Assembly: GCF_001695835.1 (NCBI RefSeq)
Contig: NZ_MBSO01000034.1
Coordinates: 1 to 64,000 of the forward strand
Source: Ensifer sp. LC11
Lineage (GTDB): Bacteria > Pseudomonadota > Alphaproteobacteria > Rhizobiales > Rhizobiaceae
Reading direction: 5' to 3'
DNA length: 64,000 bases
Part shown: positions 50,334 through 61,692 of the stretch, one piece after another
Numbering within the stretch: position 1 is the stretch's first letter
How the letters are laid out: each line of letters begins with the position of its first letter
Translations under genes and position numbers: made by a program
Notes under the pieces: model-generated
What the model was told of the DNA's origin: nothing
Database searches by the model: none
What the model saw: the letters and a program-made list of their open reading frames with translations, nothing else

Positions 50334-50348
50334 GTTCAATATTTGTTC
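50334..50348 (+). promoter_or_regulatory. LexA (SOS) box of dinB
   Basis: GTTC-AATATTT-GTTC matches the alphaproteobacterial LexA consensus GTTC-N7-GTTC exactly. It ends six bases before the dinB ATG, so bound LexA should block transcription or its early elongation. Confidence 0.88.
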
Positions 50349-50353
50349 CTGAC

Positions 50354-51646
50354 ATGTCCGACAGCGCTGCTCAAATTCCAGGCTTCTGCCGCGACTGCCT
50401 TAGGGAACAGGCGGCGTCCGTGCGGCGCTGTCTCGCCTGCGGCAGTCCGCGCATTCTGCGTCACGCAGAACTCTATGATCTGACCCTGGCGCATATCGAT
50501 TGCGACGCCTTCTATGCGTCGATCGAAAAGCGCGACAACCCGGAGCTCGCCGACAAGCCCGTGATCATCGGCGGGGGCAAGCGCGGTGTTGTGTCCACCG
50601 CCTGCTATGTCGCGCGCATTCACGGCGTGCGCTCGGCCATGCCGATGTTCAAGGCCCTGGAAGCCTGCCCCCAGGCCGTGGTCATCAAGCCCAACATGGA
50701 AAAATATGCCCGTGTCGGCCGCGAGGTTCGCACGCTGATGCAGGAACTGACGCCGATGGTGCAGCCGCTGTCGATTGACGAGGCCTTTCTGGAACTCCGG
50801 GGCACAGAGCGATTGCACCACGATCCGCCAGCTCGCACGCTCGCGCGCCTTGCCAGACGCATCGAGCAGGAGATCGGCATCACCGTCTCGGTGGGCCTGT
50901 CCTATTGCAAGTTCCTCGCCAAGGTGGCGTCCGACCTGCAGAAGCCGCGCGGCTTCTCCGTCATCGGCCAGGCCGAGGCGCTGGAGTTCCTGAGAGAAAA
51001 GTCGGTTACCCTGATCTGGGGCGTCGGCAAGGCCTTTGCCTCGACGCTCGAGCGCGACGGCGTGCGCACGATCGGGCAATTGCAGACCATGGAAGAAGCC
51101 GACCTCATGCGTCGCTACGGCACGATGGGACAACGGCTCTATCGCCTGTCGCGGGGGCTCGATGAAAGAGCCGTCGAAATCGACGGCGAAGCCAAGAGCG
51201 TATCGGCGGAGACGACGTTCAACGACGACATCGCGCGCTACGATGACCTCGTGACGCACCTCCGGCGCCTGAGTGAACAGGTGGCCCACCGGCTGCGGAA
51301 ATCGGAGCTCGCCGGTCAGACGGTCGTTCTCAAACTGAAAACCACCGACTTCAAGCTTCGCACACGCAATCGGCGGCTCGACAGTCCCACTCGGCTTGCC
51401 GACCGCATTTTCCGCACCGGCCTCCAGCTTCTGGAGAAGGAGGCCGATGGCACGAAATATCGGCTGATCGGCATCGGCGTCAGCGATCTCTCGGCCCCGG
51501 ATCTCGCCGATCCCCCAGATCTCGTCGATCCGGCGGCCACCAGGCGAGCAGCCGCCGAAGATGCCATGAACAAGCTGCGCGACAAGTTCGGCAAGGCGAG
51601 CGTCGAGACCGGCTATACATTCGGCACCAGGAAACGCGACCCCTGA
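50354..51646 (+). CDS. dinB: DNA polymerase IV (Y family)
   Basis: Error-prone translesion polymerase. The 430-residue product has palm motifs [19 protein letters not shown] and [10 protein letters not shown] (catalytic Asp and Glu), the [23 protein letters not shown] block, HhH part ([14 protein letters not shown]) and the little finger. Unlike E. coli Pol IV it has an N-terminal extension with CRDC and CLAC (Cys12, 15, 26, 29), a likely zinc ribbon. Expression should be DNA-damage-induced through the LexA box just upstream. Confidence 0.95.
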
Positions 51647-53133: not shown

Positions 53134-56631
<3,498 letters not shown>

Positions 56632-56763
56632 CGCCGCACCCCGATTCCTGTCTGGTCGACAGGATATCCTGCTTATCACCCGCCATGTCCAGTTTCACCT
56701 GACATGTCGTCCCCTTATTCAACCGGGGGGAGGAAAATTGGGAGTGCGTACGATGAAATGTCC

Positions 56764-56787
56764 GCGCTCGCCTCAGAGGCCGAGCGC
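56764..56787 (-). terminator. Hairpin over the stop of the small SOS ORF
   Basis: On the minus strand GCGCTC-G-GCCTC and GAGGC-GAGCGC form an 11-bp stem with one bulged G. The TGA stop at 56775-56773 lies at its tip. Without a T run, it may act as a partial terminator and would give a transcript of about 120 bases. Confidence 0.5.
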
Positions 56788-56859
56788 TATGAAAGAGATG
56801 CTTGCGATGAACAGGCTCATCGAAGTGAAGGCGGCGAGGTCACGAACAAAATCAGTCAT
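56773..56859 (-). CDS. SOS-controlled 28-residue membrane peptide (candidate division inhibitor)
   Basis: A short ORF absent from long-ORF lists. The ATG (56859-56857) is preceded at 7 bases by AAAAAGGAG, one of the best ribosome sites in the window. The peptide begins MTDFVRDLAAFTSMSLF and ends in IASISFIALGL: an amphipathic start then one membrane helix. The promoter directly upstream holds a LexA box in its spacer. Size, helix and LexA control recall SidA, the 29-residue SOS division inhibitor of Caulobacter, but I cannot claim sequence homology. It is co-directional with dnaE. Confidence 0.72.
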   Translation of the reverse strand: MTDFVRDLAAFTSMSLFIASISFIALGL

Positions 56860-56887
56860 AACATGGCTCCTTTTTCGTTATGTTTTC

Positions 56888-56916
56888 ATTTTGTTCTATT
56901 TCTGTTCACGCGTCAA
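56888..56916 (-). promoter_or_regulatory. SOS promoter with LexA box between -35 and -10
   Basis: On the minus strand TTGACG (56916-56911) is followed after 17 bases by CAAAAT (56893-56888). The spacer contains GAAC-AGAAATA-GAAC (56907-56893), an exact match to the alphaproteobacterial LexA site; the last base overlaps the -10. The transcript start would be about 20 bases before the small ORF. Confidence 0.85.
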
Positions 56917-57046
56917 GCGCAACCACAGCCATTCTGGTAATGATGGTTAATGCCGGTCGCTGGAAGATCAGCCAATGCGGTGTGCCGCTTGAGGAATGCG
57001 AGGCGAACGCCTATCAATAGCGACAACCACAAGGGAATCTCCTCGC

Positions 57047-57634
57047 ATGCGCGCACGCCCGATCCTGCCGTTGTTGTTCCTGCCGCTGTCGTTCCTGTTT
57101 CCGGCGGCCGCTTCTGCGGCGGAAACGGTCGAACTGTCCCGCATTGTTTCGGCCGCCGCCGGCGACTGGAACAAGGACGGCGACTCGGACCTCGCTCTTA
57201 TCGTGCGCCCCGCCGAGGGTAGCGACGAGGACAACGGCGTCTATCTTTATCTCACCGGCGAGAACGGCGCGCTCGAACTGAAGTCGGCGATCCCAAACAA
57301 AATCTGGGGCCAATTCAACTTCGCCGGACAGGCCCCCGCGATCGAGGCGCTGCCGAGCGGTTCGTTGCTCATCACCAGTCACAATGATTCCATCGGGCGT
57401 GACCGCTGGGAGCAGACACTGACCGTCGCCTATCGCAATTTCGAGTTCGTCGTCGCCGGCTATACCTACTCGTCCTACGATACGCTCGATCTCGACAACA
57501 CGTCAAAATGCGACCTCAACGTCCTGACCGGCAAGGGCAAATCCAACGACAAGCCCGTGGTCGCCAAGGGTGAACTCATCCTCTTCAAGGACTGGAACGA
57601 CGATCGCGGCCAGAAGGCGTGCGGCCTGCAATAA
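57047..57634 (+). CDS. Secreted hypothetical protein with FG-GAP-like start
   Basis: A 195-residue exported protein. Signal peptide MRARPILPLLFLPLSFLF is cut near ASAAE. The mature start DWNKDGDSDLALIV is like one calcium-binding FG-GAP/VCBS blade, but the rest does not show further repeats. Cysteines in KCDLNV and KACGLQ may pair. Function unknown. It lies after an untranslated gap and before the DUF5680 gene on the same strand. Confidence 0.78.
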   Translation: MRARPILPLLFLPLSFLFPAAASAAETVELSRIVSAAAGDWNKDGDSDLALIVRPAEGSDEDNGVYLYLTGENGALELKSAIPNKIWGQFNFAGQAPAIEALPSGSLLITSHNDSIGRDRWEQTLTVAYRNFEFVVAGYTYSSYDTLDLDNTSKCDLNVLTGKGKSNDKPVVAKGELILFKDWNDDRGQKACGLQ

Positions 57635-57713
57635 GCGGATGATTGTTCCCTATATGTTCTTTACAGGTACCGCAGATCGCGGCATCCTCAATAAGAACAT
57701 ACGAGGAACGATC

Positions 57714-58181
57714 ATGACCGCGCTCGAACGACTCAAGGACTTCATCGTCGAAGCCAAATCGAACACCTATGTCGGCGGCGGGATGCCGCGCCCGTCGTCC
57801 CGCCCGGGTTCCCGCGACATCGGCTACGAGAGGGACAATTGGCGCTATCTCGACAGCTACTTCGGCGGAACTGATTTTGCCGGGCAGGAGACCGTCTGGC
57901 GGGATGGCGAGCCTGCCTGGGCGATGAACTATTTCGGCCGGATTACAAGGCACGATCTCATCAACGGAGAAAAGGCCGGGCTGATCATCAAGGCAGCGCT
58001 CCAGGCCATGTACCGCGACAAGCGACACTTTCTCGGTGGCATGGAGTTTCGTCATGCTCACGGCTACTACATTGATAACAGCCGGGGAGACATCGGGCAC
58101 TTTTCCGGTCACGAGGTCATCTTTGTCGATGGCGAGGAAGCCTATGAACTCGATTATCGCGGCGGCCTGATCAAGCGCTGA
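57714..58181 (+). CDS. DUF5680-type small protein
   Basis: A 155-residue cytoplasmic protein. The start MTALERLKDFIVEAKSNTYV, then the core RDIGYERDNWRYLDSYFGGT, VWRDGEPAWAMNYFGRI and HEVIFVDGEEAYELDYRGGL match my recollection of DUF5680, which elsewhere is fused to helix-turn-helix regulators. Here no DNA-binding part is present. ATG follows CGAGGAACG. Function unknown. Confidence 0.72.
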   Translation: MTALERLKDFIVEAKSNTYVGGGMPRPSSRPGSRDIGYERDNWRYLDSYFGGTDFAGQETVWRDGEPAWAMNYFGRITRHDLINGEKAGLIIKAALQAMYRDKRHFLGGMEFRHAHGYYIDNSRGDIGHFSGHEVIFVDGEEAYELDYRGGLIKR

Positions 58182-58330: not shown

Positions 58331-59017
58331 TCATTTCATCTCGACGACCTTGCCGTCTTCGATCGTGACGCGGCGATCCATCAGGCTTGCGAGCTCATGA
58401 TTGTGGGTAGCGATCAAGGCCGCCAGACCCGACTGGCGCGCGAGTGCTTCCAGCGCCTCAAAGACATAGCCGGCGGTCTCCGGGTCGAGATTGCCCGTCG
58501 GTTCGTCGGCGAGGAGGACGAGCGGCGCGTTGGCCACAGCCCTCGCAATCGCGACACGCTGCTGCTCACCACCGGAAAGCTCTGCCGGACGATGTTCGGC
58601 GCGGTGGCCAATCCGCATGTAGTCGAGCAGCGCCCTTGCCCGATCGGCGGCTTCCGCCTTCGGCAGACCGGCAATCAGCTGCGGCATCATGATGTTCTCG
58701 AGCGCCGAAAACTCCGGAAGCAGGTGGTGGAACTGGTAAACGAAGCCGATCTCGTTGCGGCGGATCGCGGTGCGCTTGTCGTCGCTGAGGTCGCCACAAG
58801 AAACGCCGCTGACCAAGACTTCGCCGGCGTCAGGACGCTCGAGCAAGCCGGCAACATGCAACAATGTCGACTTTCCGGTTCCCGATGGCGCCACCAGCGC
58901 CACCGTCTCGCCGCTTCTCAGCGTGAAATCCGCCCCTTTGAGGATCGACAGAAACGTCTCGCCCTCCCCGTAGTGTCGCTCGACGCCGGAAAGCTGCAGT
59001 GCCACGCGCGCATTCAT
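58331..59017 (-). CDS. lolD: Lipoprotein-releasing ABC transporter ATPase LolD
   Basis: Cytoplasmic ATPase that drives release of outer-membrane lipoproteins to LolA. The 228 residues show Walker [10 protein letters not shown] (the first Gly of GxSGxGKS is Ala), Q-loop [19 protein letters not shown], signature [14 protein letters not shown], Walker [14 protein letters not shown] and the H-loop ATHNHEL. It starts 16 bases after lolC and is last in a proS-lolC-lolD unit. Confidence 0.94.
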
Positions 59018-59033: not shown

Positions 59034-60344
59034 TCATTCGTAACGCAGAGCCTGCACCGGATCGAGGCGCGAGGCACGCCAGGCCGGGAAGATCGTGGCG
59101 AGGAAGGAAAGGGTGAGCGCCATGACGATGACGAGCGCGGTCTCATCGGCATTCATGTCGGCCGGAAGCTGGCTGAGGAAGTAGAGCTCCGGACTGAAGA
59201 GCGTCGTTCCGGAGATCCAGGAGAAGAACTGCCGGATGGATTCGATGTTGAGGCAGACGATGACGCCAAGCGCCACGCCGGCCACCGTGCCCGCGACACC
59301 GATCGCCGCACCGGTCATGAAGAAGATGCGCATCACCGACCCGGAGGTCGCACCCATTGTTCTAAGGATTGCGATGTCGCTGCCCTTGTCCTTCACCAGC
59401 ATGATCAGGCCGGAAATGATGTTCAGCGCCGCGACCAGTACGATCAGCGTCAGGATCATGAACATCACGTTGCGCTCGACCTCGAGCGCCGAGAAGAAGG
59501 TCTTGTTGCGATCGCGCCAGTCGGTGATGAATATCTGCCGTCCGGCGGCATCCTCGATCGGCTGGCGCAGCTCATCGACGACATCGGGATGTTCAACGAA
59601 AATCTCGATCGACTGCGCAAGTCCGTCGGCGTTGAAGAAGAGCTGGGCTTCTTCCAGCGGCATGAAGATGATCGTCGAGTCGTATTCCGACATGCCGATC
59701 TCGTAGATCGCCGAGACGGTATAAGCCTTGACACGCGGGTTCATGCCAAGTGGCGTCACGTCGCCGTTGGGCGAGGTCAGCGTGATCGTGCCGCCGACGC
59801 TTATGCCAAGCTGTTCGGCCATGCGCGAGCCGATCGCGACACCGGAACCGGAAGCAAATCCGACCAGATCACCGGACTGGATATGGTCTGACACCGACTT
59901 CATCTTGCTCAGGTCGTCGGCGCGGATGCCGCGCACCAGCGCACCGGTCGAACTGTCGCCGATGCCCTGGGCAAGCACCTGGCCCTCGACCAGCGGGATC
60001 GCCATGGTGACGCCCTTGACGCCCGAAAACTTGGTCGCAAGGTCAGCGTAGTTGTCGAGGGGGCCGTCGATCGGCTGGACGATCATATGACCGTTGATGC
60101 CGAGAATGCGGGAGATGAGCTCGGTGCGAAAGCCGTTCATGACGGCCATGACGATGATCAGCGTGGCAACACCGAGCATGATGCCGATGAAGGAGAAACC
60201 GGCGATGACCGAAATGAAGGCTTCCTTGCGCCTGGAGCGCAGGTAGCGCCAGGCCACCATGCGCTCGAAGGCGGAAAAGGGACGGCTGGAGGACTTTTCA
60301 GGCTGTGCTGCAGCCTGCACCTGATCTTCAGTCACGGCGGTCAT
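59034..60344 (-). CDS. lolC: Lipoprotein-releasing ABC transporter permease (LolC/LolE family)
   Basis: Inner-membrane partner of LolD. The 436 residues have four membrane helices and a large periplasmic domain after the first. FERMVAWRYLRSRRKEAFIS and VIAGFSFIGIMLGVATLIIVMAV at the start and the final LSFLATIFPAWRASRLDPVQALRYE are diagnostic. Only one permease gene is seen, as in other alphaproteobacteria with a LolF-like homodimer, so the C or E label is formal. Confidence 0.93.
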   Translation of the reverse strand: MTAVTEDQVQAAAQPEKSSSRPFSAFERMVAWRYLRSRRKEAFISVIAGFSFIGIMLGVATLIIVMAVMNGFRTELISRILGINGHMIVQPIDGPLDNYADLATKFSGVKGVTMAIPLVEGQVLAQGIGDSSTGALVRGIRADDLSKMKSVSDHIQSGDLVGFASGSGVAIGSRMAEQLGISVGGTITLTSPNGDVTPLGMNPRVKAYTVSAIYEIGMSEYDSTIIFMPLEEAQLFFNADGLAQSIEIFVEHPDVVDELRQPIEDAAGRQIFITDWRDRNKTFFSALEVERNVMFMILTLIVLVAALNIISGLIMLVKDKGSDIAILRTMGATSGSVMRIFFMTGAAIGVAGTVAGVALGVIVCLNIESIRQFFSWISGTTLFSPELYFLSQLPADMNADETALVIVMALTLSFLATIFPAWRASRLDPVQALRYE

Positions 60345-60363: not shown

Positions 60364-61692
60364 TCACTTCGTTGCGATCAGCTTGTTGATCGCCGCTTCG
60401 ACGGTCATCGTCTCGCGCTCGCCGGTCTTGCGATCCTTGAGCTCAACTTCGCCACTGGCGATCGAGCGCGGACCAACGATCACCTGAACCGGCACGCCGA
60501 TCAGATCGGCCGTTGCGAACTTCGCACCGGCGCGGTCGTCGCGGTCGTCGAGCAGGACGTCGAATCCTGCCTTGCCGAGCTTCGAGTAGAGCGTCTCGCA
60601 GGCGCCGTCGCAAGCGGCATCGCCCGCTTTCATGTTGATGATCACGGCATCGAACGGCGCGATCGACTTCGGCCAGATGATGCCGTTGTCGTCATGCGAG
60701 GCTTCGATGACCGCCGGCACGAGACGTGTCGGGCCGATGCCGTAGGATCCCATGTGCACGGCGTGTTCCTTGCCGTCGGGCCCGAGCACCTTGGCGCCCA
60801 TGGCTTCGGAATACTTGGTGCCGAAGTAGAAGATGTGGCCGACTTCGATGCCACGGGCAGACACTCGGTCGCTCTCGGCAACCGCATTGAAGGCAGCCTC
60901 GTCGTGCATTTCAGACGTCGCGGCATAGCGCGAGGTCCACTTGTCGAAGATCGTCTTCAGACCCGCGACATCGTCGAAGTTCGTGTCTTCGCCGGGAATG
61001 TCGAAGCCGAGGAAATCCTTGTGGCAGAAGACCTCGGATTCACCGGTGTCGGCAAGGATGATGAACTCGTGGCTGAGGTTGCCGCCGATCGGGCCGGTGT
61101 CGGCGCGCATCGGAATGGCGCGAAGGCCCATGCGGGCGAAGGTGCGCAGATAAGCGGCGAACATCCGGTTATAGGCGTGCTCCGCCCCCTCCCGGTCGAG
61201 ATCGAAGGAATAGGCGTCCTTCATCAGGAATTCGCGCGAGCGCATGGTTCCGAAACGCGGACGGATCTCGTCACGGAACTTCAGCTGGATGTGATACAGA
61301 TTGAGCGGCAGATCACGGTAGGACTTCACATAGGAGCGGAAGACGTCCGTGATCATTTCCTCGTTCGTCGGACCATAGAGCATCGGCCGGTCCTGGCGGT
61401 CCTTGATGCGCAGCATTTCCTTGCCATAGGCATCGTATCGACCGCTCTCCTGCCACAGCTCGGCAGACTGGAGCGTCGGCATCAACAGTTCGATCGCGCC
61501 GGAACGGTTCTGTTCCTCGCGAATGACCGCATTGACCTTGTCGAGAACCCGCTTGCCCAGTGGCAACCAGGTATAGATGCCCGAGGACTGCTGCCGGATC
61601 ATACCCGTGCGGAGCATGAGGCGGTGGGAAACGATTTCCGCTTCCTTGGGATTTTCCTTCAGGATGGGCATGAAAAAGCGGGACAGGCGCAT
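60364..61692 (-). CDS. proS: Prolyl-tRNA synthetase, short alphaproteobacterial type
   Basis: Charges tRNA(Pro). The 442-residue form has class II motifs: motif 1 in [20 protein letters not shown], motif 2 in [20 protein letters not shown], motif 3 in [18 protein letters not shown], and an anticodon-binding domain at the C terminus ([21 protein letters not shown]). The editing domain (INS) of long ProRS is missing, as usual in this class. First gene of proS-lolC-lolD, gap to lolC 19 bases. Confidence 0.95.

Follow-up and report, generated by a model that had tools for sequence, protein, structure and literature searches.

A small gene upstream of dnaE in Ensifer sp. LC11, preceded by a LexA-type box, is a probable sidA ortholog

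Our analysis of the window (the whole stretch of 64,000 nucleotides from Ensifer sp. LC11) points to a 28-codon gene on the minus strand, 141 nt upstream of dnaE and in the same orientation, that is most likely an ortholog of the Caulobacter gene sidA. The locus as a whole is best explained, with a probability of roughly 0.85, by a sidA ortholog that LexA would repress and DNA damage would induce, and whose product would hold FtsW/FtsI/FtsN so that division waits. All the parts that an initial annotation had placed in the 153-base span 56764..56916 of the minus strand were found there when the sequence was checked, and the features of the locus and of its neighborhood are as follows.

56911..56916, minus strand: -35 element TTGACG (sequence, promoter scan and family conservation).
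56893..56907, minus strand: LexA-type box GAACAGAAATAGAAC, between -35 and -10 (exact GAAC-N7-GAAC).
56888..56893, minus strand: -10 element CAAAAT, with a spacer of 17 nt (promoter scan).
56882..56885, minus strand: degenerate third half-site AAAC, 11 nt past the second GAAC (family consensus and sequence).
56867..56875, minus strand: ribosome binding site AAAAAGGAG, 7 nt 5' of the ATG (sequence).
56773..56859, minus strand: probable sidA ortholog, 28 sense codons and a TGA stop (ORF, family searches, dN/dS and profile homology).
56764..56787, minus strand: inverted repeat spanning the stop codon, with no family-wide excess and not terminator-like (folds and scan).
53134..56631, minus strand: dnaE (DNA polymerase III alpha), probable start 56631 (Pfam and start codon).
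58331..59017, minus strand: lolD-like gene upstream of the peptide (ORF; NCBIfam LolD below the equivalog cut-off).
59034..60344, minus strand: permease gene upstream of the peptide (ORF; S. meliloti gene order).
60364..61692, minus strand: proS-like gene upstream of the peptide (ORF; S. meliloti gene order).

The promoter TTGACG-N17-CAAAAT was confirmed by the sequence and by a promoter scan of positions 56550-57050, in which it was the sole pair found, and the exact LexA site indeed lies inside its spacer, base 56893 being both the last of the box and the first of the -10 element. The leader, which had been put at about 20 bases, is predicted at ~22 nt from the position of the -10 element and carries the ribosome site. 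The ORF itself encodes MTDFVRDLAAFTSMSLFIASISFIALGL, whose 28 residues would form the single membrane helix that had been claimed for it (hydropathy maximum of 1.94 over 17 residues, with charges confined to residues 3, 6 and 7), and the peptide matched no family in a search of Pfam and NCBIfam. Note that two plus-strand ORFs (56996-58181) lie between the lolD-like gene and the sidA ortholog, and that they look inserted, since the corresponding gap in S. meliloti Ak57 measures ~230 nt with no gene listed there. Directly 5' of the one ending at 58181 stand two LexA-like boxes (57645-57659 and 57695-57709) in opposed orientation, 35 nt apart.

In S. meliloti Ak57 (CP090106.1), MADFVRDLAAFASMSLFIVSISVIALGL is found before dnaE, with two overlapping boxes and a peptide of 28 residues that is 85.7% identical to that of the window, and the gene order is proline--tRNA ligase, lipoprotein-releasing permease, ABC ATP-binding protein and dnaE. 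No gene is listed at this ORF in the gene table of that collection, which is incomplete. It should be noticed that the record is titled plasmid pSymB, yet comprises 3.7 Mb with dnaE and proS, and has the appearance of a mislabelled chromosome. A published Ribo-seq study of S. meliloti 2011 places a translated small ORF, sORF25, within the dnaE1 5'-UTR (PMC10117765). As sORF25 occupies the same place as the Ak57 ORF, it is very probably the S. meliloti counterpart of the gene in the window; section 24 of that paper gives no function for it, and the main text holds 0 occurrences of 'LexA' and of 'SOS'.

It is the conservation of the peptide that lifts this gene beyond chance, the box by itself being near chance. 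The single peptide matched 144 of the 297 family genomes at E<=1, and a 55-row profile matched 223 of them at E<=1e-3 (a hand count of the profile-search rows) and 281 at E<=1, a lax threshold, at which 106 of 385 class genomes matched as well; at E<=1e-3, the class-wide background of the profile was limited to 2/385 genomes, one being that of the window. Of the family genomes, 16 had no profile match, and seven of these measure 1.0-2.0 Mb. We examined 90 family loci, 30 returned by the single-peptide search and 60 picked from its list with, for the most part, a single locus for each genus. In 81 of the 90, dnaE follows the peptide in the same orientation, in none does it lie on the opposite strand, and the stretches of the other 9 hold no dnaE; the distance to dnaE in the 81 linked loci ranges from 70 to 653 nt. 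The loci read contained 80 distinct peptides. For the 76 loci with a peptide of exactly 28 residues, pooled pairs (which overlap and are not independent) gave dN/dS values of 0.14, 0.19 and 0.22 across three bands of identity, and pN/pS was 0.17-0.37 in the coding frame versus 0.95-1.42 and 3.1-10.6 in the two alternative frames. The peptide sequence is under purifying selection.

The box is conserved along with the reading frame, as would be expected from the initial annotation. Indeed, 70/81 dnaE-linked family loci have an exact box whose first base lies 30-60 nt 5' of the start codon, most of the other 11 showing one degenerate half-site. For 51 of the 65 distinct family peptides, TTGAC begins 9 nt ahead of the box, and the aligned consensus of the family is TTGACa...GAACAaAAAtaGAACAaaataaaAACAtAa. 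The half-sites follow a period of 11 nt, and several relatives display a third full GAAC, that is, two overlapping boxes. In the genome of the window, the probable start of lexA is itself preceded, at 62 nt, by a box of this form (GAACACATATGGAAC). Nevertheless, the box alone was rejected as proof of the gene, because GAAC-N7-GAAC occurs near chance, 7 times in the window versus 2.26 expected and 192 times in the genome versus 159 for the reversed pattern. A narrowed AT-rich pattern, picked after the whole-genome count and fitting neither the lexA box nor the box at 56893-56907, gave 15 genomic matches versus 3 for the reversed control. According to Pfam and NCBIfam, 5 of these 15 sites precede repair or replication genes (one shared by uvrA and ssb, the others ahead of genes for DNA polymerase IV, a helicase resembling UvrD, an ATP-dependent DNA ligase and a product whose ImuA match stayed below the model cut-off), and two further sites adjoin an ABC permease and a glyoxalase. 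In the window itself, a LexA-type box (50334-50348) also stands ahead of a DNA polymerase IV gene (50354-51643), ~1.5 kb past the 3' end of dnaE. Elsewhere in the genome, two small ORFs lie immediately 3' of LexA-type boxes (L344:1284-1484, 67 aa, and L333:1314-1481, 56 aa); neither has an NCBIfam match, the first also has no Pfam match, and they are possible further SOS small proteins.

The position before dnaE in 81 of the 90 family loci would also suit an upstream ORF or leader peptide controlling dnaE1, the purpose of which would be SOS control of the replicative polymerase. Consistent with this explanation, no terminator-like site lies between the ORF and dnaE in the window, sORF25 belongs to the dnaE1 5'-UTR of S. 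meliloti, and upstream ORFs were raised as an option in the same Ribo-seq study (PMC10117765). As initially claimed, the ORF ends in a hairpin that is present and stable (inverted repeat 56787-56764, -16.6 kcal/mol), but its role as a functional end was not supported. A stem enclosing the stop was found in 61/81 loci versus 1662/2430 random windows from the same loci, with a mean energy of -6.45 versus -7.13; single-structure folds likewise placed a stem at the stop in some relatives, no more commonly than in random windows; the 181-nt fold gave a z of -1.30; and the promoter and terminator scan of 56550-57050 returned no terminator-like site. The hairpin was rejected as a terminator on these grounds. 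Read-through into dnaE, which had also been raised, is plausible given the lack of a terminator-like site and the translated small ORF placed in the S. meliloti dnaE1 5'-UTR.

What disfavours a mere dnaE leader is, above all, the existence of relocated copies. In six ~8-kb stretches (L368-L373), selected for missing dnaE in a shorter stretch, the peptide and the exact box are kept in 6/6 with no dnaE within ~4 kb on either side, so that the constant linkage expected of a leader peptide is broken in these copies. In two of them (L371 and L373), ORFs resembling the proS-like, permease and lolD-like genes of the window persist upstream, which indicates that the peptide stayed and dnaE did not. 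The purifying selection on the amino acid sequence and the variable distance to dnaE also argue against a leader, as do phage copies that stand apart from dnaE, and altogether we regard this explanation as improbable. Concerning the phage copies, 9 of 14 stretches contain homologs without a box in the 90 nt upstream (L348, L350, L352-L354, L356-L358 and L361), of which that of L348 lies beside RecT and exonuclease VIII genes and that of L352 beside a phage-type repressor. Five IMG/VR contigs (L363-L367) hold a relative ending in TFAVWAGYLAEKV, an ending demanded by the search pattern, and one of these contigs is probably the same element as the L348 contig since their lengths are equal (42,186); a tblastn search against a phage collection gave no match. 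The box-less homologs are possible phage-borne division inhibitors, which suggests that phages may use the same target.

Returning to the sidA ortholog, its distribution beyond the family was followed at the order and class levels. At E<=0.05, the order-level profile search matched 42/199 genomes, of which 36 belong to other families, and loci from 24 of these 36 were examined (L125-L147 and L095). In L125-L147, dnaE lies downstream in 22/23 and the exact box occurs in 17/23, inspection of L137 (which lacks dnaE) and of L147 revealing no clear peptide; dnaE and the exact box are both present in L095. Peptide, box and dnaE also occur together in L091, which belongs to another order. Among the 29 new class-level loci (L091-L119), dnaE was found only in L091 and L095, and we take most of the remaining class-level matches at E<=1 as chance. 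In addition, a dnaE match was obtained in 129/139 class-level genomes, and 60 of these dnaE loci were examined over the 900 nt upstream. A sense box was present in 8/60 (one of which, L155, is from the order of the window), all 8 with a small hydrophobic ORF behind the box as scored by a lenient rule, versus 4/60 with an antisense box only, none of which had such an ORF, and 48/60 with no exact box. With only 8 of 60 loci showing both the sense box and the small ORF, the gene is either missing or has a diverged box at most of these class-level loci.

The link to SidA depends on what lies before dnaE in Caulobacteraceae. Our sample comprised 24 genomes from 80 PopZ-reached loci and gave 23 dnaE loci (none from G869), all named Caulobacter or Phenylobacterium except one, Proteobacteria isolate CAULO1. 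In 23/23 of them, the place directly 5' of dnaE is taken by an ORF with a length of 29 codons, or of 30 codons for L288 and L301, C. vibrioides OR37 being an example. An exact box in the same orientation as that of the window was found in 14/23, and the other 9 (L288, L291, L293, L296-L298, L300, L303 and L306) carry GAAC-N7-GAAT-N3-GAAC, which may be a variant operator; in L295, where the hydropathy maximum of the ORF reaches 2.26, this variant adjoins an exact box. This ORF is identified as sidA by gene order, length and locus numbers. Indeed, sidA is CCNA_02004 (PMC10769358) and adjoins the nucleoside hydrolase CCNA_02005 (PMC3667746), Caulobacter dnaE is CC1926 (PMC1839093), and in L304 the ORF is flanked on its other side by a gene for a nucleoside hydrolase (PF01156, E 4.8e-80). 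Moreover, an in-frame upstream start that would yield 40 residues in 7 Caulobacteraceae loci fits the reported correction of the sidA start codon (PMC4117421).

Aligned gap-free from the start, the peptide of the window and that of C. vibrioides OR37 share 6/28 identical residues (M1, R6, A10, S13, F17 and A25), with similar residues at positions 7 (D/E), 11 (F/L) and 14 (M/V). Support for homology to SidA, taken here as the Caulobacteraceae ORF, was strong with the forward profile and moderate with single pairs and the reverse profile. A profile built without Caulobacteraceae rows found the ORF in 23/23 loci (E 1e-7 to 8e-4, 1656 frames) and no other ORF below 0.5. In the reverse search with a Caulobacteraceae-only profile, 24 of the 25 top-ranked rows were the rhizobial ORF (a single ORF being listed twice), at weak E-values (0.03 to 3.2; 5649 frames in the 90 rhizobial loci). 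Profile-profile comparison gave P 3.6e-5 and a probability of 71% over 20 columns, and shuffling of six Caulobacteraceae peptides gave p from <0.00005 to 0.0027, or, with the hydrophobic pattern kept, a moderate 0.0003 to 0.0485 over the same six. On the basis of the forward profile, the shared place before dnaE and the ranking of the reverse search, the rhizobial gene is most likely a SidA ortholog.

By analogy with Caulobacter, LexA would occupy the GAAC repeat inside the promoter, as its conservation suggests, and keep the gene off until DNA damage causes LexA to be cleaved and the gene to be transcribed. The 28-residue peptide would then enter the inner membrane through its single helix, with the charged N-terminus probably cytoplasmic, and would keep the septal wall machinery FtsW/FtsI/FtsN inactive while division waits for repair. 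The initial proposal of a SidA-like, LexA-controlled division inhibitor candidate agrees with the position, length, box and gap-free motif, all of which match sidA, and a division block would be the expected outcome. The size, the single helix and a control by LexA would also suit membrane toxins of the TisB/DinQ kind, which are small, one-helix and SOS-induced, and whose translation is controlled by an antisense RNA or a structured leader. In contrast, position, motif and length match SidA, and deletion of sidA abolishes the filamentation of the Caulobacter lexA mutant, the lexA sidA double mutant not being filamentous (PMC12700426); an SOS-induced toxin instead of a divisome inhibitor thus appears even less probable than a leader peptide. 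Least probable of all is an independent origin of unrelated LexA-controlled small membrane ORFs before dnaE in Rhizobiales and Caulobacterales, which the low pairwise identity, the similar composition of single-helix peptides and the weak reverse E-values would allow, and against which stand the forward profile matches in all 23 loci, the gap-free common motif and intermediates at the same place in other families and some other orders.

The sidA ortholog would thus extend SidA past Caulobacteraceae and, if true, provide Sinorhizobium and its relatives with an SOS division inhibitor, give a role to a translated S. meliloti small ORF without a known one, and offer 80 distinct peptides to map how a 28-residue helix stops FtsW. 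In line with the initial view that a rhizobial equivalent had not been described, neither a rhizobial SidA nor a named rhizobial SOS division inhibitor was found in searches of one open-access library, in passages of which SidA is presented as a Caulobacter protein. A more speculative idea, which we hold as possible and rather doubtful, is that of an ancient alphaproteobacterial sidA-dnaE unit in which one LexA promoter would both halt septation and feed the polymerase by read-through, temperate phages having freed the peptide from LexA so as to hold host division during infection.

Among known systems, SidA of Caulobacter crescentus (CCNA_02004) is the closest, with 29 aa versus 28 aa in the window, and is an inner membrane protein acting on FtsW and FtsN; mutations in ftsW and ftsI suppress the lethality seen when it is overproduced, and the proposed model is an inactive FtsW/I/N state (PMC4211646). 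Low-confidence models in a 2026 paper place it on FtsW TM7 (PMC13396833). The peptide of the window shares with the Caulobacteraceae ORFs one hydrophobic helix, the place directly before dnaE and the gap-free motif R-[DE]-x-x-A-[FL]-x-S-[VM]-x-x-F, whereas neither the FVWMMC core nor the arginine at position 3 is present in it, and dnaE follows after a few tens of nt in the Caulobacteraceae loci L295, L301 and L304 versus 70-653 nt in the 81 family loci. YneA, SosA and ChiZ, from Bacillus, Staphylococcus and Mycobacterium, are larger. Like SidA, they are membrane proteins that are induced by damage and inhibit division, and one paper models them on FtsW TM7 with low confidence (PMC13396833). 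Finally, DidA of Caulobacter crescentus is also a small one-helix inhibitor of the FtsW/I/N complex, but with 71 aa and a DriD-induced, SOS-independent expression (PMC4211646).
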